A program made the position numbers and the translations under genes. Source: Gammaproteobacteria bacterium (GTDB lineage: Bacteria; Pseudomonadota; Gammaproteobacteria; Tenderiales; Tenderiaceae). From it: a DNA stretch of 37,699 bases. The stretch's first letter is position 1. Each line of letters starts with the position of its first letter. The stretch lies in NCBI GenBank assembly GCA_021731365.1, contig JAKFXL010000053.1, positions 1-37,699 on the forward strand, read 5' to 3'. Below the pieces are notes generated by a model, which saw only the letters and a program-made list of their open reading frames with translations, was not told where the DNA came from and searched no databases. Positions 1-13,991 of this stretch are shown here, in pieces.

Positions 1-325
1 CCGCCAGTTTTTCTGCATTACGCTGCTCCTGACGTTCATAGAACTCCTGCGCCCTTAACCGTTCAGCACTGTGCTGCTCTACCAATCCTTGCGCCTGTTC
101 AAAAACCTCTACAGGTCCTGGCAATGTACCAAGGCTAGTATTGACCTGTGCCGCCAACCCTCCCCACAATAACAAAAACATAATAATCGCGATAACCGGG
201 AGCCCTATACATTTAAAAATATCAACCAGCTGTTCACGAGGATTTTCGCCTGTTGCCAAACGCACAGCTGGAGTCAACCATTGAAATCCTACTGTATCCA
301 TCACATGGATTATTCTATTTTTCAT
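1..325 (-). CDS. nrtB: Nitrate ABC transporter permease NrtB, N-terminal part (cut by window edge)
   Basis: The ATG at 323-325 opens a minus-strand frame that stays open to base 1. I translated it by hand. It begins MKNRIIHVMDTVGF, then has a cytoplasmic stretch (WLTPAVRLATGENPREQL), a first membrane helix at about residues 40-58, and a periplasmic charged stretch rich in Gln, Glu and Arg. The stretch around GENPREQL and LGTLPGPVEV is typical of NrtB permeases of the nitrate/sulfonate/taurine ABC family. A purine-rich ribosome site (AGAGAGAAGGG) sits directly upstream. It follows nrtA after 149 bases, so the pair form one transport operon. The permease core and the ATPase gene would lie beyond the left edge. 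Calling nitrate rather than another substrate rests on nrtA and the upstream leader. Confidence 0.8.
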   Translation of the reverse strand, partial: MKNRIIHVMDTVGFQWLTPAVRLATGENPREQLVDIFKCIGLPVIAIIMFLLLWGGLAAQVNTSLGTLPGPVEVFEQAQGLVEQHSAERLRAQEFYERQEQRNAEKLA

Positions 326-474: not shown

Positions 475-1854
475 CTACTTCACCACTTCTGCGCCTTTCA
501 GGCCGATTTTAAATTTGGTCAAATAGTCATTAGGCTTTGTACCGTCGTAGGTAATGCCATCTATAAACTCATTCTGTGGTGGACGAAAACCGCTCTCTTT
601 AGCAAAGTCAGGAAATTCGCTCGCCTTCATCTTGCCCTCGGCAATCAACTCTTTTGCAGCCTGGGCATAGATATCAGAGCGATATACTTTTTTGGCAACA
701 TCCATATACCAGCTATCTGGCTTTTGCTCATCAATCTGTCCCCAGCGACGCATCTGTGTCAGGTACCAGACAGCATCAGAGTAGTAAGGATAGGTGGCGT
801 TATAACGGAAGAAGACATTAAAATCAGGCACCGATCGTTTATCACCCTTTTCATACTCAAAGGTGCCGGTCATGGAGTTCTCAATTACTTTCACATCCGC
901 CCCTACGTAGTTTGGTTTTGAAAGTATCTTTGATGCCTCAACCCGATTGGCATTGTTATTTTCATCCAACCATTTGGCAGCACGGATCATCGCCTTAACA
1001 ACACGAATATGGGTATTGGGATTTTTTTCAGCCCAAGCTTTGTTTACACCGAATACTTTTTCAGGATTATTTTTCCAGATCTCATAATCAGTAATAACCG
1101 GCACACCAATACCCTTAAATACAGCCTGCTGATTCCACGGTTCACCCACACAATAACCATTGATGGTGCCAGCCTCCATGGTGCTGGGCATCTGTGGTGG
1201 TGGTGTAACTGATAATAATGCGTCTGCTTTTATGGTGCCCGAGGTATCCCCCTTGGCAGGTGCGTAGTAACCCGGATGAATACCACCGGCTGCTAACCAG
1301 TAACGCAGTTCATAATTATGGGTAGAGACAGGGAAGACCATACCCATTTTGAACGGTTTTCCTTCGCTCTTGTATTGATCAATCACGGGTTTAAGTGCAT
1401 CGGCCTTAATCGGATGAACAGGTTTTCCATTCTTCATGGGTACATTTTTTTTCATCTCCCGCCATACATCATTAGAGACTGTAATTGCATTACCGTTAAG
1501 GTCCATCGAAAACGCCGTAATGATATCGGCTTTAGTCCCATAACCTATGGTGGCACCTAGCGGCTGTCCGGCCAACATATGTGCACCATCAAGTTCGCCG
1601 TTAATCACCCGGTCAAGCAATACCTTCCAGTTGGCCTGCGCTTCAAGCGTTACATACAGCCCCTCATCTTCAAAAAACCGTTTTTCATAAGCGATGGCCA
1701 ACGGTGCCATGTCAGTCAGCTTAATAAAACCAAATTTCAACTCCTCTTTTTCTGGCTTACCTACTTCGGCATACACAGTCCCAACCATCCCCATCAGCAT
1801 GGATGTCAGCAGACCAACACCCATCTTTTTGATAAAGGTACGTCTTTGTTTCAT
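475..1854 (-). CDS. nrtA: Nitrate ABC transporter substrate-binding protein NrtA (Tat-type signal)
   Basis: This 459-residue protein belongs to the NrtA/NasF-type periplasmic nitrate-binding proteins of ABC importers. The N-terminus carries a twin-arginine style signal (QRRTFIKK, then a hydrophobic stretch to about residue 29), as many NrtA proteins do. The body has the family pattern: [25 protein letters not shown] near residues 41-65, [20 protein letters not shown] near 91-110, and a central [13 protein letters not shown] segment. Length is normal. The start at 1854 has an upstream AGGAGT. It is the first gene of its unit, preceded by an RpoN promoter and an antitermination leader, and nrtB follows. 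Nitrite or cyanate is a less likely substrate. Confidence 0.93.
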
Positions 1855-1880
1855 CGGTAAACTCCTATTGTATTAAAAGT

Positions 1881-1934
1881 AAAAAAGCGCCCATTCGTGA
1901 ATGATGTAATCACTACATCATCACCAATGGACGC
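1881..1934 (-). terminator. Leader terminator (attenuator) before nrtA
   Basis: A long minus-strand stem-loop ends in TTTTTT (1881-1886). The outer stem pairs GCG(T)CCATT (1934-1926) with AATGG(G)CGC (1895-1887), and the inner stem pairs ATGATGTA with TACATCAT. It lies only 27 bases before the nrtA start, so if left to fold it should stop transcription before the gene. Its 5' arm shares bases 1929-1934 with hairpin P2 of the upstream antitermination element, so the two folds exclude each other. Confidence 0.88.
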
Positions 1935-1965
1935 CATTGTCCTTGTGCAGATCGCCATTGATCTG
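1929..1965 (-). promoter_or_regulatory. ANTAR-type two-hairpin antitermination element in the nrtA leader
   Basis: Two hairpins with identical AATGGC hexaloops lie 5 bases apart. P1 (1948-1965) is CAGATC-loop-GATCTG. P2 (1929-1942) is GGAC-loop-GTCC. Loop position 1 is A and position 4 is G, the signature of RNA targets of ANTAR-domain antiterminators (NasR, NasT, EutV). P2 overlaps the 5' arm of the terminator at 1881-1934. A protein that holds P1/P2 would therefore let polymerase run into nrtA, classically in response to nitrate or nitrite. The regulator gene is not in the window. Confidence 0.85.
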
Positions 1966-2048
1966 ACTTGTATACACACTACCCAACGTTGGGTTTCAAG
2001 CCTCACCGCCCATTACTGGCCAGTTAATATTTATCTCACCACAACATT

Positions 2049-2274: not shown

Positions 2275-3516
2275 CTAGAACTGAGCCTGCCCCATCAGCC
2301 AGAATTTATCCGTATCTGTAGATAAGGTATCAGCAGAGTAGCTGGCATATTTAGCTGATAGCGTATAGTTTTTACCCAGTTTTTTGGCTGCCAGAAGATC
2401 TATCTCAGAGCCATATTGATCATTACCAATATCAGAGGAGAAATCATGATAGACCGCCTGCAGTTTAATGCCCGCCACCTTACCTTGAATACTCAGGTAT
2501 GTATCCACCAATCCATTAGCAGGTGTTGCTAAAAATTTATCCGCCCAGCCGTTAAAGGCGTGCAGTGTTGCCAATTGAGTAGTAAAGGCGCTGCTATCGG
2601 CACCCAGTACTTCATACCCCAGCAGGGCGGTAATACCGCTGTACTCAGCACCCAGCTCGATGAGTTTATAATCAGCGTCAATCGTAGATGCCCCCTCTTT
2701 ATAATCGCCCTGTTTGGCATACTCTGCGGTGTAGAGCGCCTTGACATCACCATTCATCTTTGTTCCACCGGAAAAACGGATGCCGAGGGTTGAGTTGGAT
2801 GCGGCTGGTGCATTCATCAGATCTAAAAAATAGCCATACGCCGATATTTTACCGGCCGCCAGACCGCCGTACGCCACATTAATAAGATGGCTCCTGGTAT
2901 CAACATTGCCCTTACCGGACTCTTCACCAAATATGGTGTTAATGTTAGTGAGATATGCATAAGTAACAGCAGTATCTTTAAGCGAACTGTTGACGACAGT
3001 AAAACCATCATAGGTCTGCTCATTTTGACGCCAACCAACATTCCCCACAAAACGGGAATTATCCAAGATGATACGCTGACGACCTAATTTAAAGGTGGTA
3101 TCCGTGAACCCCTTATAACTCAGGTAGACTTGATTGACCTCTGTACCCGCAGGATCAGCTACCACTGGATAACCTGTTTTTGCTGATGGCAGGCCCGTGG
3201 CATCATTATATTTAACATCACCTAGCGCCATCACATCATCAAACTCAACAAATACACTGGTATCCATGTAACTTTCTGTTTGATAGTTGAGGCGTGTACG
3301 TAAAGTGGATGCCTTTGCCTTTTCTGCGACACCCGCCTGATCAACCATTTCATAACGGTAACGCAGATCAATGCCTGCCTTACCGCTGGCAATTGCCGCC
3401 TCAAAACTTTCTGCTGCTGAGACAGGTGCTGCTGTAGTCCCCATCAATATGGCGACCATTATTACAATCGGACGACGGCTCACTGTTGTCACCGCTATTT
3501 GAACTCCACCCTTCAT
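2275..3516 (-). CDS. Outer-membrane porin, nitrogen-regulated (alginate-export/OprD-like beta barrel)
   Basis: This is a 413-residue exported protein. The signal peptide has a twin-arginine-like SRRPIVIM stretch, a hydrophobic core and probable cleavage after APVSAA at about residue 35. The mature part is a run of alternating polar/apolar strands with conserved porin segments such as DLRYRYEMVDQ and TLRTRLNYQTESY near the start and KLGRQRIILDNSRFVG in the middle, and it ends in phenylalanine (AQAQF type), the barrel-assembly signal. This fits the alginate-export/OprD-like porins. A GAGGT ribosome site precedes the start. The gene is a single-gene unit with its own RpoN promoter, leader and terminator, so it probably lets nitrate or nitrite cross the outer membrane. 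The substrate is inferred from regulation alone. Confidence 0.82.
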   Translation of the reverse strand: MKGGVQIAVTTVSRRPIVIMVAILMGTTAAPVSAAESFEAAIASGKAGIDLRYRYEMVDQAGVAEKAKASTLRTRLNYQTESYMDTSVFVEFDDVMALGDVKYNDATGLPSAKTGYPVVADPAGTEVNQVYLSYKGFTDTTFKLGRQRIILDNSRFVGNVGWRQNEQTYDGFTVVNSSLKDTAVTYAYLTNINTIFGEESGKGNVDTRSHLINVAYGGLAAGKISAYGYFLDLMNAPAASNSTLGIRFSGGTKMNGDVKALYTAEYAKQGDYKEGASTIDADYKLIELGAEYSGITALLGYEVLGADSSAFTTQLATLHAFNGWADKFLATPANGLVDTYLSIQGKVAGIKLQAVYHDFSSDIGNDQYGSEIDLLAAKKLGKNYTLSAKYASYSADTLSTDTDKFWLMGQAQF

Positions 3517-3541
3517 ATTGCTACCTCTTTAATTAAGTCAC

Positions 3542-3593
3542 AAAAAAATGCCTGACCAACAGATACGCACAATGCACAATCTGCGGGTCAGGC
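3542..3593 (-). terminator. Leader terminator (attenuator) before the porin gene
   Basis: The outer stem GCCTGACC / GGTCAGGC (8 bp) continues into CAGAT / ATCTG and is followed by A and seven T on the minus strand. It sits between the RpoN promoter and the porin start, so it must be overcome for expression. Bases 3590-3593 of its 5' arm are shared with hairpin P2. Confidence 0.88.
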
Positions 3594-3624
3594 CTCTTTG
3601 CCTAATGTGAACAATGTTGCTCAC
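3590..3624 (-). promoter_or_regulatory. ANTAR-type two-hairpin antitermination element in the porin leader
   Basis: P1 (3607-3624) is GTGAGC-AACATT-GTTCAC, with one G.T pair. P2 (3590-3603) is AGGC-AAAGAG-GCCT. Both loops have six bases starting AA. P2 has the G at loop position 4, whereas P1 has A there, a deviation from the consensus. The spacer is 3 bases, and P2 overlaps the terminator arm exactly as in the nrtA leader. Confidence 0.75.
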
Positions 3625-3812: not shown

Positions 3813-3849
3813 ACAAAAATCCCGCGACGCTTAACAGGCCGCGGGATTT
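3813..3849 (-). terminator. Intrinsic terminator of the redox operon
   Basis: A perfect 10-bp stem (AAATCCCGCG / CGCGGGATTT) with a 13-base loop runs into a short T tract, 7 bases after the DUF3365 gene stop. It ends the three-gene operon that starts near 8036. Confidence 0.8.
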
Positions 3850-3855
3850 AAATAT

Positions 3856-4443
3856 TTATAGTGGTATACGAATCACCACGCCCCCCATGGTATCGCCAAT
3901 TTTAAAATCACTCTTGGGTGTATCTTTATGGTCGTTATGGCACTCAACACAGGCCGGGGCAACAGCAACATCAGGATATATGGCGGTGTAATAATTTTTC
4001 CCGCCCAGAGATTCCTCTTTATAGAAATTTTGCCCGGGGTTCTCTTCAATAAACTTCAACCCACTCGCCTCTGCCTCTGTTTTTGGCTCATTCTGTTTAT
4101 TGATCGGCCAGGATGAGATTAGCGAATAACTGAAATCACTGTTGCTTTCCGCAACACGCTCCGCACCAAAACGAAACATCTGTGCGGGCAACGGTAACGC
4201 CTTATCATCCTGCCAGTGCTCACTGGCTTTAATCACCTTCTCCTCTTTAACCAAGCGGTTGATTACCAATTTGGTATAGACAGCCCGATCTGCCTCCATC
4301 ACTGCATGCAGGGCGTCCGCCATTTTTTGTGGTGTAATGGCTGTATTAACAGCTGCCGGGGTTTCAGCCTGCTGACCACACCCTGATAACAGCGCTGTGC
4401 TAACGATACCGATGGCCAGTGCTTTTTTTCGCATATGATTCAT
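3856..4443 (-). CDS. DUF3365 (Tll0287-like) mono-haem lipoprotein
   Basis: This 195-residue protein has a lipoprotein signal (hydrophobic residues 8-19, lipobox LSGC with the lipid cysteine at 22) and one c-type haem site, CVECH, at 165-169 near the C-terminus. The central pattern, with FRFGAERVAE near 91-100, KFIEENPG near 130-137 and YYTAIYPDVAVAPACVECH before the haem site, is the DUF3365/Tll0287-like domain found in periplasmic haem sensors and electron carriers. A strong GGAGAGAG precedes the start. It follows the multi-haem cytochrome after 52 bases and is the last gene before the terminator. The probable job is membrane-anchored electron transfer or haem-based sensing in the nitrite route; the substrate is unknown. 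Confidence 0.82.
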   Translation of the reverse strand: MNHMRKKALAIGIVSTALLSGCGQQAETPAAVNTAITPQKMADALHAVMEADRAVYTKLVINRLVKEEKVIKASEHWQDDKALPLPAQMFRFGAERVAESNSDFSYSLISSWPINKQNEPKTEAEASGLKFIEENPGQNFYKEESLGGKNYYTAIYPDVAVAPACVECHNDHKDTPKSDFKIGDTMGGVVIRIPL

Positions 4444-4495
4444 TACTCTCTCCTTCTACACGTTGAATAAACAGACTCACTTACAAACACTATTT

Positions 4496-5842
4496 TTATC
4501 TTGCCCCTCGCTTCTCATCACGTGCCAATGCCATTTGTGCGCTCATCACCTCTACAGTGGGTGATGATGAGAAGTTGTTTTTTATTAACGTGCCATCAGC
4601 CAGTGCGTTGATAGCAAACTGATAACCGTGGCAATGCATACAGACACTACGTACCATTTTTTCGTTGGGCCGAAGATTGAGACTCTGATTGTGTTGAATG
4701 GCAACATGTCTGTCCCCGAGTTGGCGCACCTCCGCCCGTGGCATGTGACAGGTCGCACAGGAGACACCGCTACCCACAGCTATCAACCCTGCCAGCTCCT
4801 GCTGCCAAAGCTGCGCATGAGGTGAGTCTGGATAGTGTCTGCTATGTTCATCATCATGGCACCCCATGCAGGCATCAACCGCCGCCTCTTTCACCCCGCC
4901 TTGATGCGCGCCATGACAGCTATTGCAATCGAGTGGCTGCTTGGCAACTTTTGCCTTCATGGGTAACCGGGCCATGGCCGGTACCATGGGTGACATTCCC
5001 TGTGCCAGGCGCATACCGTGTTTACCCGCCGTAAACCCCGATACCTCCTGTTTGTGGCAGCTCTCACATATTTTTACGCCTGGCTTGTCGATCCAGGTTT
5101 TATTCTCTTGCCGATGACAGTCAGAACAGTTCACACCCGCCGTGGCATGCCCCGAATCAACCCAGTGTTGAAATTCATCCGTCGCTAGCTGTCTGTTGGC
5201 CGGGGCATCGGCATCTCCCGCTGCAAGCGCTGTTGCCGGTGAAGATGCAACCGCCAGATTCCATTGATGCAAATTGCGTTCAGGAACACGTTGAGGATTC
5301 AGATGGGCTGGCTCATTGCCATGTTTAACCAAAAACGCTTCATATAGCGCCTGATTGTCGTGATAGTTATGGCAGCCGGCACTGGCACAGCTATCAAAAG
5401 AGATATCGTTATGGCTAGCACGCTCTTGAGCTATATCTTTGTGGCAGATAAAACAGAGGTCATTTGGCAACGTCACACCCATCGCATCCGTCACCTCTGG
5501 TTTATGCTCACGATGACAGGTGATGCAGTAACGTGCATCCAGCAGTGCAACCCTGTTGGCATTCCGTGGGTCGGTAAATTTACTCCGTGGATGTGCGTCG
5601 CGCGCTGCCTTCAGCTGATCGCCGTGGCAGTTGATACAGGCTGCCTGTAACGCCTCACCACCTGCAAACGCCTCCCCGTGACAACTGTCACACGCCAGCT
5701 CTATCTGATAATGTCCGTGGCTGGTCGTTCCTGGCAACAGTGCCGTTTTGTCTTCACCTGTCAGTGCGTATCCGTAGTAAGCAGCCACCCCTAAACTCAG
5801 CAACAACCAAACAATCCACCATTTAATATTGCTCGATCTCAT
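4496..5842 (-). CDS. Membrane-anchored multi-haem cytochrome c (11 haem sites)
   Basis: This 448-residue protein has one N-terminal membrane helix (about residues 8-27) and a periplasmic body. Ten CxxCH haem sites start at residues 51, 69, 106, 130, 239, 259, 306, 325, 362 and 401. One unusual CX4CH site is at 152-158. The C-terminal half (KHGMR near 274-278, CMGCHDDEHSRHYPDSPH near 325-342, SCATCHMPR near 361-369) resembles octahaem hydroxylamine oxidoreductase/nitrite reductase-type cytochromes, but I cannot assign it to a family with certainty. It starts 8 bases after the oxidoreductase gene with AGGGGCG as ribosome site. Under the shared nitrogen control it could carry electrons to, or itself catalyse, nitrite reduction in the periplasm. 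That is inference. Confidence 0.85.
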   Translation of the reverse strand: MRSSNIKWWIVWLLLSLGVAAYYGYALTGEDKTALLPGTTSHGHYQIELACDSCHGEAFAGGEALQAACINCHGDQLKAARDAHPRSKFTDPRNANRVALLDARYCITCHREHKPEVTDAMGVTLPNDLCFICHKDIAQERASHNDISFDSCASAGCHNYHDNQALYEAFLVKHGNEPAHLNPQRVPERNLHQWNLAVASSPATALAAGDADAPANRQLATDEFQHWVDSGHATAGVNCSDCHRQENKTWIDKPGVKICESCHKQEVSGFTAGKHGMRLAQGMSPMVPAMARLPMKAKVAKQPLDCNSCHGAHQGGVKEAAVDACMGCHDDEHSRHYPDSPHAQLWQQELAGLIAVGSGVSCATCHMPRAEVRQLGDRHVAIQHNQSLNLRPNEKMVRSVCMHCHGYQFAINALADGTLIKNNFSSSPTVEVMSAQMALARDEKRGAR

Positions 5843-5850
5843 CGTCGCCC

Positions 5851-7824
5851 CTAAAAATAGTAACTACTGAGAATGTGAAAGCCGAGCAGCACCGGTAGCG
5901 GCCAGAAGAGGCCAAGATGGATCCAGCCTGAGTAACGACGCCAACGCCCCAATGCAATACTGGCACCACCACGCTCAAGCGCCGATACCATGCCTACCAC
6001 TGCACCCACCAGCGCAATGGCAACAAAACAGAACATTAATAGAAAATTAAGGTTGTCCCCCATACGCAACCCGGTATGCAGGATTAACAGCATCAACAGT
6101 AACGCCCCTAATACAGAGTGCAGCGCACGCCAATAACCAAAATCGATAAACGAAAATTTTTTGATCCGCTTCCGCAACGAGAGCAGCAGTGCCAAAACAG
6201 TCATGCCCAGCAACGTAAATCCAGTCACCTGTTTTGAAAACGTTACACTCCATAGGTCACTGATATGCCACCCCTGTTGCACGGTGGTCACAAACGGAAT
6301 AGGTTTGACAAAGAGTGTGATGAAGGCCATCAACATCGCCAGCAGTGATGCCCCCATGAGCAGATTGCCTGCTCTGTTTTTGATGGGCACGGCAGACTCA
6401 CCCAACATCTCAGCCAAACGTGGCTTGCAACCACCGCACACCGTAGAGGCCCCCGTACACTGCACTAACATCTCAACCGTTGTGCAGCCACCGGTGACCG
6501 CTGCGCTTAATACACCACGACTGACACCGGTGCAGTTACAGACAATTGCATTGGCAGGCCACTGACGCACATCCTGTGACTGCTGCTCTGTCCACAACTC
6601 ACCGCTCCGTTTAAAACGCATCAGCTGCCATGGCCAGAGACGGCGATGGTGCACCACACCCTCTTGTACCCGTTGATGCTGGGGCCACTCACCTATGGCA
6701 ATCGCCCCTTGAAGTCGACCACCCACCATCACCAACTTACGGTAGTAACCCTTTTCATCATTTTGATAAACCGCTGTGCGGTAGTGGCTAGGGATCTCCT
6801 CCTCTACCACTGTGCCAATGCTCAACAGCGCTGTGCCCACCACTTTGAGTCGCGCCACTGCCGTACTGCCACGATAAAATGCGTGCTGGCCAACAATGTT
6901 ATGGGCCGCCACCGAGGCCTGCTCCAGCCCCGGCGCAACCAAACCATAAATCTGATTATTGTGTTCGGTACACTCGCCCACGGCATAGATCGCCGGATTG
7001 GATGTTTGCAGCAGATCATCCACCCGAATACCACGCCCCACTCGCAACCCTGCACCACGCGCCAGTTCCACATTGGGTTTTATACCTGTGCAAAAAACCA
7101 CGGTATCGCAATCGAGTACGCTGCCATCACGCAGACGCACCCCCTCGACTAAACGCTCTCCTAATATCGATTGAACACCACTGTTGAGATAGACCTTGAT
7201 TCCCAGAGACTCAACCTCAGCACACATCATGGCAGCAGCATGATCGTCCAGCTGACGCCCCATCAAACGATCACTGTGTTGAATAATAAAAACAGCCGTA
7301 TGGCTGCGCTGTAGTGCATGGGCGGCCTCAAGCCCTAACAGCCCCCCACCTACCACCACTGTTCGACGGCTACCAATACGGCGTGCCAACAGCCCATTAA
7401 GATCTGACATATTGCGGAAGGTGAAGACATTGTGCAGCGCCCTACCAGGGATATCTGGCACGTGAGGGCGTGACCCCACTGCCAAGATCAATCGCGAATA
7501 TGGCTGCTGCCGCCCTAACAGATCCGTCACTGTTTTTTCGTGGCGATCAATAGCAACCACCGCACAGTTGTAACGACACTCAATACTCCCGGTTGTGGGC
7601 AGCTGCAACGACTGAAATATATCCGCCCAGCTGGAGTGACCCGCCAACATCTGGGTCAGTCGCACACGGTTATAGGGTTCCCACGGTTCGTCGCCATAGA
7701 TCACCAAATGCAACAGCGGGTCCAGACGCAACAACTCCTGTGCGACACGAATCCCCACCGGCCCGCTGCCTACAATCACAACAGGGGGCAATGCTAACAC
7801 TGCCTGATCTATTGCCACCGCCAT
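5851..7824 (-). CDS. NasC/NirB-like FAD-NAD(P)H oxidoreductase with Bfd [2Fe-2S] domain fused to a haem-b-type membrane domain
   Basis: The chosen ATG at 7822-7824 gives 657 residues. An in-frame ATG at 7890 lies inside the leader terminator and is rejected. Order of parts: FAD fold with VIVGSGPVG (about 16-24); NAD fold with VVVGGGLLG (about 155); a BFD-like [2Fe-2S] domain with CNC and CGGC (about 430-465); then 4-5 membrane helices to the end. The last helices carry histidines (ALHSVLG, LILHTG, WIHLG, GFHILS) suited to bind b haem. The soluble part matches the electron-transfer subunit of assimilatory nitrate/nitrite reductases. The fused membrane domain is unusual and suggests NAD(P)H electrons cross the membrane to the cytochrome encoded 8 bases downstream. 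It is the first gene of the operon, behind the sigma54 promoter and leader. Confidence 0.85.
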   Translation of the reverse strand: MAVAIDQAVLALPPVVIVGSGPVGIRVAQELLRLDPLLHLVIYGDEPWEPYNRVRLTQMLAGHSSWADIFQSLQLPTTGSIECRYNCAVVAIDRHEKTVTDLLGRQQPYSRLILAVGSRPHVPDIPGRALHNVFTFRNMSDLNGLLARRIGSRRTVVVGGGLLGLEAAHALQRSHTAVFIIQHSDRLMGRQLDDHAAAMMCAEVESLGIKVYLNSGVQSILGERLVEGVRLRDGSVLDCDTVVFCTGIKPNVELARGAGLRVGRGIRVDDLLQTSNPAIYAVGECTEHNNQIYGLVAPGLEQASVAAHNIVGQHAFYRGSTAVARLKVVGTALLSIGTVVEEEIPSHYRTAVYQNDEKGYYRKLVMVGGRLQGAIAIGEWPQHQRVQEGVVHHRRLWPWQLMRFKRSGELWTEQQSQDVRQWPANAIVCNCTGVSRGVLSAAVTGGCTTVEMLVQCTGASTVCGGCKPRLAEMLGESAVPIKNRAGNLLMGASLLAMLMAFITLFVKPIPFVTTVQQGWHISDLWSVTFSKQVTGFTLLGMTVLALLLSLRKRIKKFSFIDFGYWRALHSVLGALLLMLLILHTGLRMGDNLNFLLMFCFVAIALVGAVVGMVSALERGGASIALGRWRRYSGWIHLGLFWPLPVLLGFHILSSYYF

Positions 7825-7870: not shown

Positions 7871-7919
7871 AAAAAAGGCGTCCAGCACATGGAAAACTCT
7901 CCATGCTGTGGACGCCTTT
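7871..7919 (-). terminator. Leader terminator (attenuator) before the redox operon
   Basis: The stem AAAGGCGTCCA / TGGACGCCTTT continues, after a small internal mismatch, into GCATGGA / TCCATGT around a 6-base loop, and is followed by a T run on the minus strand. It ends 46 bases before the ATG at 7824. Its 5' arm includes the loop and 3' arm of hairpin P2. Confidence 0.88.
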
Positions 7920-7944
7920 GTCATAGATGGGCCACCGTTAGCCC
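7911..7944 (-). promoter_or_regulatory. ANTAR-type two-hairpin antitermination element in the redox-operon leader
   Basis: P1 (7929-7944) is GGGCT-AACGGT-GGCCC with one G.T pair. P2 (7911-7922) is a short GAC-AAAGGC-GTC. Both hexaloops have A at position 1 and G at position 4. The linker is 6 bases. P2 has only three clear base pairs, weaker than in the two other leaders, but its loop GGC and 3' arm form the base of the competing terminator, the same arrangement as before nrtA. Confidence 0.75.
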
Positions 7945-8199: not shown

Positions 8200-9114
8200 T
8201 TATCGCCCAGCCAAACATTGCCCCACTGAACCACGTGCGCAGATCGTTTTGTCTAGCCACAGGGTCTGATCAAGTTTGGCACCAGCCAGGTTGACACCTT
8301 TTATGTTGGCCCCACTCAAATCTGCATACGAAAGGTCTGCACCACTTAAATCAGCGCCACTTAAATCACTGCCGTTAAGTTTTGCGCCCATCAATTGTGC
8401 GCCGCGCAAATTCGCTTGACCAAGATTGACAAGACTCAAGTTGGCATAGGCCAGATCGGCATTCTGTAAATCAGAGCGCTGTAACGTGCTACCTGTGAGA
8501 TTTGCATTACGCATTACCGCCTGTTGCAGATTGCTGTTATCAAGCACAGCGCCCTGCAGGCTACAGTTGCTCCAGTTAACATTGGCGGCTGGCGCTGCGG
8601 AACACTCCGCCTCCGGCCCGTTGGCCTGAGGCGTATAGTTCATTACCAATGCAACCAGGGCACCAACAGTGGCGAGTATCGCGGTGACTGCCAAGACTAT
8701 CGTTAATGGTTTTTTTTTCTGCTCTGATGACGAACTTTTCGATCTGTTTCGATGATATTCAACAACATCCTCAGGTTCTATGCCATTCAACGCCCTGGCG
8801 TTACGTTTGGCAACATCCAGTAGATATTGGTTTATGGCATCGTCGGTATTCTGTTTTGATGTGGGGATATGTTCATCATCACGCGCTGCCACATCGACCA
8901 GATACTGATTCACAGTACCACTGAGTGTGCCCTTAACAGCGGCTGGTACTAACTCTTTTACATCAGCGATGGCTTGCCAATGCTCCTGGTCAGTGCTGAC
9001 CTGATCCTCTTTACGCAGCCGGTTAAGCAGCAGATATTGGGCAATCACCGTCCGTGGATAGGGTCCACGGACCTCACCATCTTTTTGTATATACCACAAG
9101 GTATGTGTTTGCAT
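8200..9114 (-). CDS. GYF_2-domain membrane protein with C-terminal pentapeptide repeats
   Basis: This 304-residue protein starts at the ATG 9112-9114, which has GGAAG 8 bases upstream; an in-frame GTG at 9129 is less likely. It has three parts. A GYF_2 (DUF4339-like) domain at the N-terminus holds WYIQKDGEVRGPY near residues 7-19. One membrane helix lies at about 140-162 after a Lys/Ser-rich stretch. The C-terminal domain consists of pentapeptide repeats of the A(D/N)LSx type (for example GADLSGADLSYADLSGANI), about 16 repeats forming a right-handed quadrilateral helix. A repeated NQYL(V/L)DVA motif occurs twice in the linker (near 70 and 95). The cellular role is unknown; GYF_2 domains are thought to bind peptides. 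It is transcribed away from the fliK-like gene. Confidence 0.82.
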   Translation of the reverse strand: MQTHTLWYIQKDGEVRGPYPRTVIAQYLLLNRLRKEDQVSTDQEHWQAIADVKELVPAAVKGTLSGTVNQYLVDVAARDDEHIPTSKQNTDDAINQYLLDVAKRNARALNGIEPEDVVEYHRNRSKSSSSEQKKKPLTIVLAVTAILATVGALVALVMNYTPQANGPEAECSAAPAANVNWSNCSLQGAVLDNSNLQQAVMRNANLTGSTLQRSDLQNADLAYANLSLVNLGQANLRGAQLMGAKLNGSDLSGADLSGADLSYADLSGANIKGVNLAGAKLDQTLWLDKTICARGSVGQCLAGR

Positions 9115-9258
9115 TTCAATCACTTCCACAAGAAAACAGATTACTGAGAATCACTCACCATCGCTTTATGCACAATCTCATATACAACCCCGTATACAAT
9201 ATTGGTCCAGCTTGGCAATATACAGATTCATCGGCCAAATCCGGACCTGCTTTATCCC

Positions 9259-10800: not shown

Positions 10801-11022
10801 TCAGCCACAACACCCTCCCCCTTTACCCTGCTCCTGAATCGGCGGACAGGGAATGGTGCCGTAAGAGCAGAAGACACAGCAGTCCCCCGCCTTTGGTTTC
10901 AACACCGTTTGACACCCTTCACACTCATAGAACCACTGACAGGCATCGGTCGGCATGGTCTCCATGTTGGTGTGTCCACAGTGCGGGCAGGTCAGGGTCG
11001 ATTCCAGGGTCACGCCGCTCAT
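10801..11022 (-). CDS. GDCCVxC-domain small cysteine-rich protein of the mer operon
   Basis: This 73-residue protein has 13 cysteines. CPHCGH at 12-17 and CEGC near 34-37 look like a zinc-ribbon pair. The naming motif GDCCVFC is near 46-52, and the end is GKGGGCCG. GDCCVxC proteins are often the third gene of mer operons. The function is unproven; the cysteine load suggests Hg(II) or other soft-metal handling in the cytoplasm. Its start overlaps merP by 4 bases (ATGA), and it ends 19 bases from the convergent flhX gene. Confidence 0.85.
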   Translation of the reverse strand: MSGVTLESTLTCPHCGHTNMETMPTDACQWFYECEGCQTVLKPKAGDCCVFCSYGTIPCPPIQEQGKGGGCCG

Positions 11023-11303
11023 CGACTGACCCCCTTTACCTTAGAGGGGTAACCGGCCCCCTCCGTCGCCTGCGTCAGCCTCTTCACATCGACTCTATTG
11101 TCGTCATAACTGACCTGCGCCTCACGTCTATCCAGACTCACCTCCACATGGGTAACACCCGGCACCTTGGAGAGTGCACTCTTGACCGTTAACGGGCAGG
11201 CCGCACAGGTCATGCCCTCCACCGCCAGTGTGGCGGTCTGAGTAGCAGCCCAGACAGGAGAGATCATTGAAACAAGCGCAATCATGACAAACAGTTTTTT
11301 CAT
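11019..11303 (-). CDS. merP: Periplasmic mercury-binding protein MerP
   Basis: This 94-residue protein has a cleavable signal peptide (about residues 1-19, ending WAA) and a heavy-metal-associated domain with GMTCAAC at 30-36. Cysteines 33 and 36 are the Hg(II) pair. The C-terminal part keeps VSLDRREAQVSYDD and the GAGYPSK loop typical of MerP. It lies 13 bases after merT and overlaps the GDCCVxC gene. Its known role is to scavenge Hg(II) in the periplasm and hand it to MerT. Confidence 0.95.
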   Translation of the reverse strand: MKKLFVMIALVSMISPVWAATQTATLAVEGMTCAACPLTVKSALSKVPGVTHVEVSLDRREAQVSYDDNRVDVKRLTQATEGAGYPSKVKGVSR

Positions 11304-11316
11304 AACGAACTCTCGG

Positions 11317-11667
11317 TTAGTAGAACAGCGGTAATAGATAAGGGAAGCCGATGGCCATCAGCACCAGTCCGGCCACACCCCAGAAGATAATTTTATAGCT
11401 GCGTCGTACCTGCGGAACCGCACAGAGGTCATCGGGTTTACACACCGCCACCGGCCGGAAGATACGACGCCACGCCAAAAACATAGCTACCAGGGCCACA
11501 GCGATAAAGAGCGATCGATACGGCTCCAATACCCGCAGGTTAGCGATCCATGCACCACTGATACCCAGTGTCACCAGCACTAACGGGCCAAGGCAGCAGG
11601 TGGAGGCGAGTATCGCCGCCACGCCCCCCATTGCCAATGCACCACGACCTTTGTCCGACTCCGCCAT
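11317..11667 (-). CDS. merT: Mercuric ion transport protein MerT
   Basis: This 116-residue inner-membrane protein has three hydrophobic segments (about 11-35, 51-66 and 92-114). The first holds the vicinal pair Cys24-Cys25, and the loop after the second holds Cys76 and Cys82, the four cysteines that define MerT. It is the first gene of the divergent mer operon, with the MerR-type promoter directly upstream and GGGGTTAGAG before the ATG. It takes Hg(II) from MerP into the cytoplasm. No merA reductase gene is found here. Confidence 0.95.
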   Translation of the reverse strand: MAESDKGRGALAMGGVAAILASTCCLGPLVLVTLGISGAWIANLRVLEPYRSLFIAVALVAMFLAWRRIFRPVAVCKPDDLCAVPQVRRSYKIIFWGVAGLVLMAIGFPYLLPLFY

Positions 11668-11702
11668 CTCTAACCCCGTTTACATCGCTGTGTGATGGTA
11701 TA

Positions 11703-11733
11703 ACGTTACCTCTGTAGTCAAGTACGGAGTCAA
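11703..11733 (-). promoter_or_regulatory. MerR-controlled mer promoter with 19-bp spacer
   Basis: On the minus strand, -35 TTGACT (11728-11733) and -10 TAACGT (11703-11708) are separated by 19 bases that contain the dyad CTCCGTAC...CTACAGAG. This is the arrangement of the Tn501/Tn21 mer operator: an over-long spacer that MerR untwists when Hg(II) binds. merR starts 5 bases from the -35 on the other strand, so MerR also sits on its own promoter region. Confidence 0.88.
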
Positions 11734-11738
11734 GCAAG

Positions 11739-12149
11739 ATGAGCAACCCTTCAGAGCAGCTAACCATCGGCACCTTTGCCAAACGGGCCGGGGTCAACGT
11801 CGAGACGATCCGTTTTTATCAACGCAAAGGGCTACTGCTGGAGCCGGAGAAACCCTACGGCGGCATCCGTCGTTATGGTCATGCCGATATCGCACGGCTG
11901 GGATTTATTAAATCAGCCCAACAGCTTGGCTTTAGCCTGGACGAAATAGCTGAATTACTAAGTCTGGAGGATGGTGCCCACTGCGGTGAGGCGCGTGAAC
12001 TGGCGGAGCATAAACTCGGAGATGTCCGCAACAAGCTGGCCGATCTGCAACGCATCGAATCGGTACTCACCCAATTGGTGGCACAGTGCTGTGCCGCCAA
12101 TGGTGAGGTTAACTGCCCGCTAATTGCATCACTGCAACGGCCAGAGTAG
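11739..12149 (+). CDS. merR: Mercury-responsive regulator MerR
   Basis: This 136-residue protein has an N-terminal MerR-type winged helix ([20 protein letters not shown] at 9-28, GGIRRYG near 41-47), a dimerisation helix and the metal loop. The three Hg(II) ligands of Tn501 MerR are conserved at identical positions: Cys82 (HCGEA), Cys117 (QCC) and Cys126 (NCPLI). An extra Cys118 replaces the usual His. These residues mark it as mercury-specific rather than a copper or zinc family member. It is divergent from merT and shares the operator between them. It ends 14 bases before the end of the convergent RCC1 gene. Confidence 0.95.
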
Positions 12150-12163
12150 TACGGTTCTACCTG

Positions 12164-13813
12164 CTAACGGAACCGCTGCAACAGATTTGGATAGGCGGTC
12201 AATGGCGTCAGCACCAGCGGCCCCGTCCCCTCCATATTTTTAACCAGTATTGGTGTTGGCTGATAGAAAGGGTTTTCTACCGTCCCGCCCTGGCCTGTGT
12301 TGCCTCTGAAACCGGTCCCCCATACCAACACCCCGCCGTCAGACTTAAGCGCAAGGCTATGGTTATAACCTGCCGCAATCGATACCACGCCCTCAAGCTG
12401 ACCAAGCGCCGCTTCACCAACCACCTGGGTCGGTAGATCCCGGCTACCCGTACCTTGAGCAACATTGGGACCACGCCCCAGCTGACCGTCATTATTCAAA
12501 CCCCAACTCAATACCTTTCCAGAGGAGGTCATCGCCAACGCATGTCTGCCACCCGCCGCCACCATGGTGATGTCAGACAGTGGTGCGCCCCCCTCACTCT
12601 TCACCTGAACAGCATAAGGTATCATTTGAGACAATTTAGACCCCTGCCCCAACTGACCACTCAGATTATCTCCCCAAGCATATACCTCACCATTTCGAGT
12701 CAACGCCATGCCAAAGTTATAACCCGCTGAAATAGCAACAATATTGGTAAGATCACGACCATCCACAAGTTTAACCGTAGTGGCTAACGCAATGGGCGGT
12801 GTGACAGCCCCTGTACCCGTGCGGCCCTCAGAGTTGTACCCCCAGGCCCATACACGTCCATCCGCCGCTAGTGCCAATGAGTAGTTCCAACCGGCACTGA
12901 TACCAACAATACCTGTCAAAAGTGCCCCATCAGCACGCATCACAGGCCCTGGATAACGCGCCGACGCCCCTGTGGCCTGGCCACTGTAATATCCCCAACT
13001 CAATACCGAGCCATCATCCAGCAAGGCCAAGGCATTATTATCGCCAATGGCCGTTTGAACCACCCGCTCAAGATCTGCTGAATTGGCTGAGTTACGCACC
13101 CGCACCGGCAATAACGAAAATTGGGGGTTTTGAGCCGTTAGCTCCCAAGCGCTATTATCCCCCCAGCCCCAGACATTGCCCTCTTCAGAAAGCGCCAGCA
13201 CAGCGCTATCACCTGCCGAGGCCATATATATAGTGTCCAATGATGGTGCGCCGCTGGCGTTCATCACCGCAATCGGCAGCGTTGAAAAGGTCAACTGAGT
13301 CCCCGATTTATTCTGTCCCAATACCCCTGACGGGTTAGCCCCCCAAGTCAGCCCATTGCCTGACGGAGTCACCACCAGATTGTAATCGCCAGACCCCGAG
13401 CTGGAGGTCACACCATGGGTCCCCGCCCAATGACGTTGTGGCGTCACCTGCACCGTCACGGTGGCGCTGATAGTACCCGAGGTCACGGTGATCTCCTGTG
13501 AGCCAAGCTGCAAACCAACCGCCCCTGAACAATCACTATCCACCATCAGTGCCGCTGGTTTAGCCGCCTGGCAGCTGATGTTACTCAGTATTTCCCCGTT
13601 GGCATTACGCAATATCATCACTAACGATGTATCAAACTGCCACGGCAACTTTGCACTGGCGGGCACAATCAAGGTGGCTCCTCCCCCCGTCCCAACATTC
13701 ATATTGCTGTCAACAGGTGCTGCCGGCTCCCCCACACCACCGCCACATGCGGTTAAAACAGTGACCAATAGAACGACCGAAACGCAATTCAGTTTCCGTG
13801 AAATCTGAAACAT
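12164..13813 (-). CDS. RCC1-repeat beta-propeller lipoprotein
   Basis: From the chosen ATG at 13813 (GGGGTA 14 bases upstream; ATG 13831 is an alternative) the protein has 549 residues. The signal sequence ends in a lipobox (TVLTAC), followed by Gly-rich CGGGVG. A small Ig-like domain (about 45-140: SAKLPWQFDTSLVMILRN onward) precedes at least six RCC1 blade repeats of the pattern WGxNxxGxLGxG... and ...SxGxxxSLALxxDGxVxxWG. It is surface- or periplasm-exposed by its signal. Bacterial RCC1 proteins have no single known role; protein binding is the usual guess. There are no operon partners: 14 bases from merR on one side and 178 from the DUF2802 gene on the other. Confidence 0.8.
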   Translation of the reverse strand: MFQISRKLNCVSVVLLVTVLTACGGGVGEPAAPVDSNMNVGTGGGATLIVPASAKLPWQFDTSLVMILRNANGEILSNISCQAAKPAALMVDSDCSGAVGLQLGSQEITVTSGTISATVTVQVTPQRHWAGTHGVTSSSGSGDYNLVVTPSGNGLTWGANPSGVLGQNKSGTQLTFSTLPIAVMNASGAPSLDTIYMASAGDSAVLALSEEGNVWGWGDNSAWELTAQNPQFSLLPVRVRNSANSADLERVVQTAIGDNNALALLDDGSVLSWGYYSGQATGASARYPGPVMRADGALLTGIVGISAGWNYSLALAADGRVWAWGYNSEGRTGTGAVTPPIALATTVKLVDGRDLTNIVAISAGYNFGMALTRNGEVYAWGDNLSGQLGQGSKLSQMIPYAVQVKSEGGAPLSDITMVAAGGRHALAMTSSGKVLSWGLNNDGQLGRGPNVAQGTGSRDLPTQVVGEAALGQLEGVVSIAAGYNHSLALKSDGGVLVWGTGFRGNTGQGGTVENPFYQPTPILVKNMEGTGPLVLTPLTAYPNLLQRFR

Positions 13814-13991
13814 AGTAGTGTAATACCCCATTTTGATAATGGCAGGACTGATATCCAGCAGATGGCTAAAAACAGTACTAACATAAAAGCCATTGCAATT
13901 TATGTCTACCATAATGGTGGGCCGATTATAACGGGGGGAGGTGAATTTAATGCCGCCCGGGGCGGTCAATCGTAAAAACGCTCAGCGCTGA

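Follow-up and report, generated by a model that had tools for sequence, protein, structure and literature searches.

A widespread three-gene operon, likely under nitrate control, that may carry NADH electrons to periplasmic haems

Why should an operon of the nitrate-assimilation regulon pair an NADH dehydrogenase with predicted trans-membrane haems and periplasmic multihaem wiring? The question is raised by three genes at positions 3856–7824 (minus strand) of a 37,699-nt stretch of gammaproteobacterial DNA, contig JAKFXL010000053.1 (contig C32; hereafter the window). They encode a NirB-like oxidoreductase fused to a membrane domain, an 11-haem cytochrome c and a mono-haem lipoprotein. Literature searches found no published description of this three-gene set, which is apparently undescribed and is widespread. 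The initial annotation took the set for a nitrite (or nitrate) reduction system making ammonium for assimilation. Our own reading, held tentatively and with somewhat less than an even chance of being right, is of a nitrate-regulated electron-export module whose periplasmic substrate would be nitric oxide (NO) first and nitrite second.

A cytochrome profile built from ten sequences matched 418 related loci in GTDB species genomes; statements below on gene order and neighbourhood refer to the best 80 of these. The order oxidoreductase–cytochrome–lipoprotein is kept in nearly all 80, across several phyla, so the trio is not a chance assembly. Hosts include Gammaproteobacteria, Betaproteobacteria, Nitrospirota, Verrucomicrobia, Poribacteria and others, and the cassette occurs in the culturable genera Aliagarivorans, Alcanivorax, Marinobacter, Hahella and Catenovulum, which makes direct testing feasible. 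No cassette homologue was found on PLSDB plasmids.

The oxidoreductase matches Pyr_redox_2, Rubredoxin_C and Fer2_BFD, and scores 387 bits (cut-off 578) against the NirB model TIGR02374 over model positions 1–467 of 794. The NIR_SIR sirohaem/4Fe-4S half is absent, with no PF01077 match in Pfam. Indeed, none of the three genes encodes a sirohaem or molybdenum domain, as had been noted at the outset. The four Bfd cysteines are invariant in 70 homologues. The ATG at 7824, which agrees with the coordinate of the initial annotation, is the likely start codon; the listed open reading frame start, 7890, falls inside the leader terminator.

The last ~180 residues of the oxidoreductase make up a membrane domain of membrane-length helices (model pLDDT, predicted local distance difference test, 93.6). 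Four of its histidines are invariant in 70/70 homologues, in pairs whose members lie 14 residues apart (His591/605 and His658/672, counted from 7890). Two suitably spaced His pairs on membrane helices are what a membrane di-haem cytochrome b presents, and the domain would carry two haems b and pass electrons outward. Structure comparison placed generic bundles on top (talin first) and weakly included cytochrome b6, hydrogenase cytochrome b, NOX5 and STEAP4; for neither the membrane-domain model nor the cytochrome model did Foldseek find a PDB entry at E <0.001. Loci L083 (5153–11970) and L104 (2182–4737) encode the membrane domain on its own, as a small protein with no FAD half attached, and this points to the domain as the cytochrome's partner. 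Locus L083 also encodes a NirB–NirD fusion, a NasA-like protein and an MFS transporter.

The cassette protein resembles NirB in its order of FAD/NAD domain, Rubredoxin_C and Bfd [2Fe-2S] and in its nitrate regulon, but has a four-His membrane domain and no sirohaem/4Fe-4S half, and coexists with true NirB. NADPH oxidases, STEAP proteins and ferric reductases are alike by analogy, combining cytoplasmic NAD(P)H–flavin chemistry with His-ligated membrane haems and outward electron flow, whereas sequence kinship with them is marginal (PF01794, E 0.07, one homologue) and the cassette has a Bfd [2Fe-2S] relay and a periplasmic c-haem acceptor.

The cytochrome has an N-terminal helix (residues 3–28) and ten CXXCH motifs plus one CX4CH. 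Exactly 11 haem motifs are present in 79/79 homologues used, and no Cys outside these motifs is invariant among the aligned cytochromes. Its C-terminal half is homologous to the hydroxylamine oxidoreductase (HAO)/octahaem family (hhalign probability 99.4, E 4e-21), bearing out the membrane-anchored 11-haem protein with HAO-like segments described initially. In the structural model (pLDDT 85.6; predicted template modelling score, pTM, 0.84), residues 209–427 superpose on HAO with a middling Z of 7.4 (root-mean-square deviation 4.0 over 193 residues), and on octahaem nitrite reductase and NrfA with similarly middling Z values of 5.2 and 5.1. The cytochrome does not belong to the DmsE/MtrA decahaem family (TIGR03508, 50 bits against a cut-off of 192).

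Relative to HAO, TvNiR, ONR and NrfA, the C-terminal six haems are equivalent to haems 2, 3, 5, 6, 7 and 8 of the octahaem family, but the cytochrome adds five haems at its N terminus, is anchored in the membrane and lacks the motif for haem 4. This is the catalytic haem of HAO and TvNiR and corresponds to NrfA haem 1, which is often CXXCK. The octahaem proteins recovered carry the haem-4 motif 10 to 38 residues ahead of haem 5; its counterpart is missing in the cytochrome, with a gap in both alignments to the family. Kinship with the HAO family, in the absence of the catalytic haem motif, argues for an electron conduit. Eleven further histidines, one per haem, are conserved in at least 82/83 cytochromes. 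They favour six-coordination throughout over the five-coordinate active haem for which the initial annotation had proposed to look. Since His333, one of the eleven, lines up with the GxDH His conserved in HAO, bis-His ligation of all 11 haems is no more than likely.

The lipoprotein belongs to PF11845 (DUF3365), recently described as sCache_heme (PMC12889525). It has a lipobox-type Cys22 and a single CXXCH, and a terminator follows its gene, in line with the mono-haem lipoprotein and terminator first annotated. Only the lipobox Cys and the CXXCH Cys recur in 80 cassette lipoproteins, no other Cys being conserved, and the axial Cys of the Tll0287/P. putida type was not found (reference Cys taken from PMC12889525, not aligned). 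The protein is like sCache_heme (DUF3365/Tll0287) proteins in its domain, its one CXXCH and its stand-alone build. It differs from Tll0287 and from the P. putida protein in having no conserved axial Cys, and it belongs to a fixed operon. Its profile matched no PDB chain by sequence. The absence of any recurring Cys beyond these two suggests that the haem is open or labile and therefore a possible end point for chemistry. A signalling-type sCache_heme protein without the axial Cys binds NO tightly (PMC12889525).

What suggests that these genes are under nitrate control? An ANTAR target consists of two hexaloop hairpins with A at loop position 1 and G at position 4, the second overlapping a terminator (PMC3369931). 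The nrtA leader in the window fits this pattern, with stems of 6 and 4 bp and a second hairpin overlapping its terminator; shuffling gives an expectation of 0.125 such tandem patterns per window. The cassette leader has a 5-bp first hairpin and a second of only 3 bp (GAC-AAAGGC-GUC, seen by eye) that overlaps the next terminator, and the porin leader has one hexaloop hairpin only, before a strong terminator. Because the hairpin and terminator of the cassette resemble the ANTAR (NasT-type) leader of nrtA, nitrate/nitrite control is likely. Hexaloop and terminator occur upstream of 10/68 homologous operons and in none of the shuffles, which preserve base composition only; in Rfam the leaders matched neither an ANTAR family nor any other. 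The ANTAR (NasT-like) gene of this genome stands alone beside molybdopterin genes on contig C71 (L160:2746–3306), away from the nitrate locus. Among 45 loci longer than 20 kb, Nrt genes accompany the cassette in 21 and a NasT-like gene in 20. ANTAR-type leaders and NrtABC and NasT neighbours thus support membership of the cassette in the nitrate regulon. In other relatives Nap or Nar takes the place of NasA beside the cassette.

Does the cassette then stand in for NirB? In 369 genomes of the same class, full-length NirB is present in 22/27 with the cassette and 144/342 without (Fisher p 8e-5), and NasA in 18/27 and 98/342 (p 1.2e-4), p-values that are indicative only, phylogenetic kinship being ignored. 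These NirB counts suffice to reject the cassette as a general NirB replacement, and it probably does not replace ordinary nitrite reductase. Of the best 80 loci, 6 have NirB no more than 10 kb from the cassette. The two share a cluster at L034, L065, L078, L083, L085 and L089 and in genome G147, which has the order cassette, porin, nirB, nirD, narGHJI. Relatives hence come close to showing a complete NirB under the same control, which the initial annotation itself had named as fatal to its proposal.

It had also proposed to look for nirBD/nasA elsewhere in this genome. The nasA gene is present, its 5' end cut by a contig end (C22:49618); NirB was not found, PF01077 there matching only a CysI-like protein, nor was NrfA. 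Since a family member carries nirB directly 5' of nasA, where the contig here is cut, the absence of NirB from this genome is unproven. The cut end has no 127-bp partner among 157 contig ends examined, and there would be room for nirB–nirD on a contig below 3,311 bases, the length of the shortest contig examined. With nasA broken at a partnerless end, we dropped the absence of NirB as positive evidence.

In 71 loci with enough 3' sequence, a globin gene lies within 1.8 kb 3' of the cassette in 50 (39 single-domain, 11 truncated), and a small cytochrome c gene (cbb3-type) follows in 33. A globin–flavoprotein NO-detoxification pair is known inside the nas operon of B. japonicum (PMC4724949). Its narK-bjgb-flp-nasC cluster likewise joins NasT-controlled nitrate genes to a single-domain globin and an FAD protein, but is cytoplasmic only and lacks a membrane haem b, a multihaem cytochrome and an sCache lipoprotein. 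In cassette loci without NrtABC, a Fer2-FAD-NAD reductase of ~325 amino acids lies 3' of truncated globin genes (L051:13112–14089), possibly as globin reductase. A protein of ~310 amino acids without a Pfam match is conserved after nrtC in several relatives (L021:15062–16000; also L023 and L036).

How might these parts work together? NADH (or NADPH) would be oxidized in the cytoplasm by the FAD domain, and electrons would go by way of the Bfd [2Fe-2S] cluster to a pair of membrane haems b, crossing the membrane, then to the 11 haems c of the cytochrome and on to the single c-haem of the lipoprotein, a route that would bypass the quinone pool. Its job would be the reductive handling of a periplasmic nitrogen oxide, NO in the first place and nitrite in the second, formed as a by-product of nitrate processing by NasA, Nap or Nar and NirB; the cytoplasmic globin that most relatives encode alongside would take care of NO within the cell. 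Nitrite and by-product NO would be the common factor because the cassette accompanies NasA, Nap or Nar, and the neighbouring globins together with the Bradyrhizobium precedent (PMC4724949) point to NO as substrate. Domains, conserved ligands, gene order, leaders and co-occurrence are the part of this proposal that the sequences support; beyond them we infer haem b content, direction of flow, the lipoprotein as end point and the substrate. A quinone-independent NADH-to-periplasm chain under nitrate control is the parsimonious reading. Some observations weigh against the proposed module. The window has no globin, and the genome lacks a PF00042 globin (truncated globins were not searched). The stand-alone P. 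putida sCache_heme protein, judged redox-related, binds NO weakly (PMC12889525), though the axial Cys is present there. About a third of cassette genomes are without NasA and some are without both NasA and NirB, so the nitrate link is strong and not absolute. More ambitious, and doubtful to us, is the idea of an undescribed class of NADH-driven periplasmic nitrogen-oxide reductase in many phyla, in which a membrane di-haem b protein and an HAO-derived 11-haem cytochrome, its own catalytic haem lost, would feed a catalytic sCache haem on the lipoprotein that removes NO or nitrite during nitrate use.

Other roles for the same chain must be weighed against electron export to a nitrogen oxide. It might supply electrons generally to another periplasmic or outer-membrane acceptor (a small cytochrome c, a reductase or Fe(III)), its nitrate link being regulatory. 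The conduit-like cytochrome, the weak resemblance of the membrane domain to di-haem b proteins including NOX5 and STEAP4, and the small cbb3-type cytochrome c gene next door would all suit such a supply, which we consider possible and rather unlikely, given that the cassette is placed, in many lineages, among genes for the transport and reduction of nitrate, and with globins. Of the initial annotation, NADH-linked transfer across the membrane to periplasmic haems is supported; an assimilatory nitrite or nitrate reductase replacing NirB or NasA is not, though some nitrite-reducing activity in the periplasm may exist. A periplasmic NADH-linked nitrite-to-ammonium reductase supplying assimilation in place of NirB draws on the homology to HAO/TvNiR/NrfA, the nitrate regulon, the NADH feed and the failure to find NirB or NrfA in this genome. 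It is nevertheless improbable: most cassette genomes have NirB, sometimes in the same cluster, the catalytic haem-4 motif is missing, there are 11 candidate distal His for 11 haems, and the missing NirB coincides with the dead-end contig break 5' of nasA.

Two further roles look weaker. The lipoprotein haem could be a redox or NO sensor that the chain keeps reduced, in line with the NO-sensor properties of PF11845 domains fused to signalling modules (PMC12889525) and with the lack of a conserved axial Cys; the cassette has no conserved signalling partner beside it, and 11 haems with a dedicated NADH dehydrogenase would be costly for a sensor, making this very unlikely. The FAD–Bfd part resembles NirB/NasC electron-transfer modules and might serve nitrate reductase as a NasC-like donor, the membrane part being secondary. 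That role is highly improbable, since the cassette also stands beside Nar and beside a complete Nap cluster, its cytochrome and lipoprotein are periplasmic whereas NasA is cytoplasmic, and L083 lacks the FAD half though NasA is present. A role as donor to Nap was rejected: in genome G055 the Nap cluster that adjoins the cassette comes with NapC-like and NapGH-like genes of its own.

The porin, NrtA and NrtB genes after the cassette are separate units (Table 1). The left contig end shares 127 identical bases with contig C58, where nrtC lies 3' of nrtB; this overlap rules out a direct run from C32 into contig C22. Upstream of the operon is a GYF-domain and pentapeptide-repeat protein (8200–9129). 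A large flagellar and chemotaxis gene block takes up most of the window (9202–35465). A long secreted protein with RCC1-like WG repeats (12164–13969) adjoins the flagellar block, and a MerR-type regulator is oriented divergently to genes of MerT-like and MerP-like type that have no adjacent merA (11019–12149).

Table 1. Features of the cassette and its downstream neighbours in the window.
Feature	Position	Strand	Basis or remark
Hexaloop hairpin GGGCU-AACGGU-GGCCC (A at loop position 1, G at position 4)	7929..7944	-	P1-like element of ANTAR leader
Intrinsic terminator of leader ahead of operon	7877..7916	-	Leader -39.7 kcal/mol, z -6.2
Oxidoreductase: FAD/NAD(P)H domain, Rubredoxin_C and Bfd [2Fe-2S] fused to membrane domain	5851..7824	-	Domain matches, 4 invariant Cys
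Membrane domain, predicted di-haem b	5854..6393	-	Two conserved His pairs; haem b inferred
Membrane-anchored 11-haem cytochrome c: 5 N-terminal haems and 6-haem HAO-like domain	4496..5842	-	Motifs, profile comparison, model
PF11845 (sCache_heme) mono-haem lipoprotein	3856..4443	-	Pfam match, E 1e-20
Intrinsic terminator closing three-gene operon	~3815..3849	-	Sequence
Leader before porin, hexaloop hairpin (3605-3588) overlapping terminator	3540..3615	-	z -5.1
Porin, alginate-export family; neighbour conserved in close relatives	2275..3516	-	Domain match, locus comparison
ANTAR-type tandem hexaloop leader (1965-1948, 1942-1929) and terminator before nrtA	1880..1975	-	z -6.4
NrtA-like nitrate/nitrite ABC-transporter binding protein	475..1854	-	PF13379, E 1e-99
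nrtB, running on into contig C58, where nrtC comes next	1..325	-	127-bp end overlap

If electron export to a periplasmic nitrogen oxide is the right reading, annotators should not count the HAO-like cytochrome of the cassette as an ammonifying nitrite reductase, and nitrate users would own a dedicated, quinone-independent path for NADH electrons to the periplasm.

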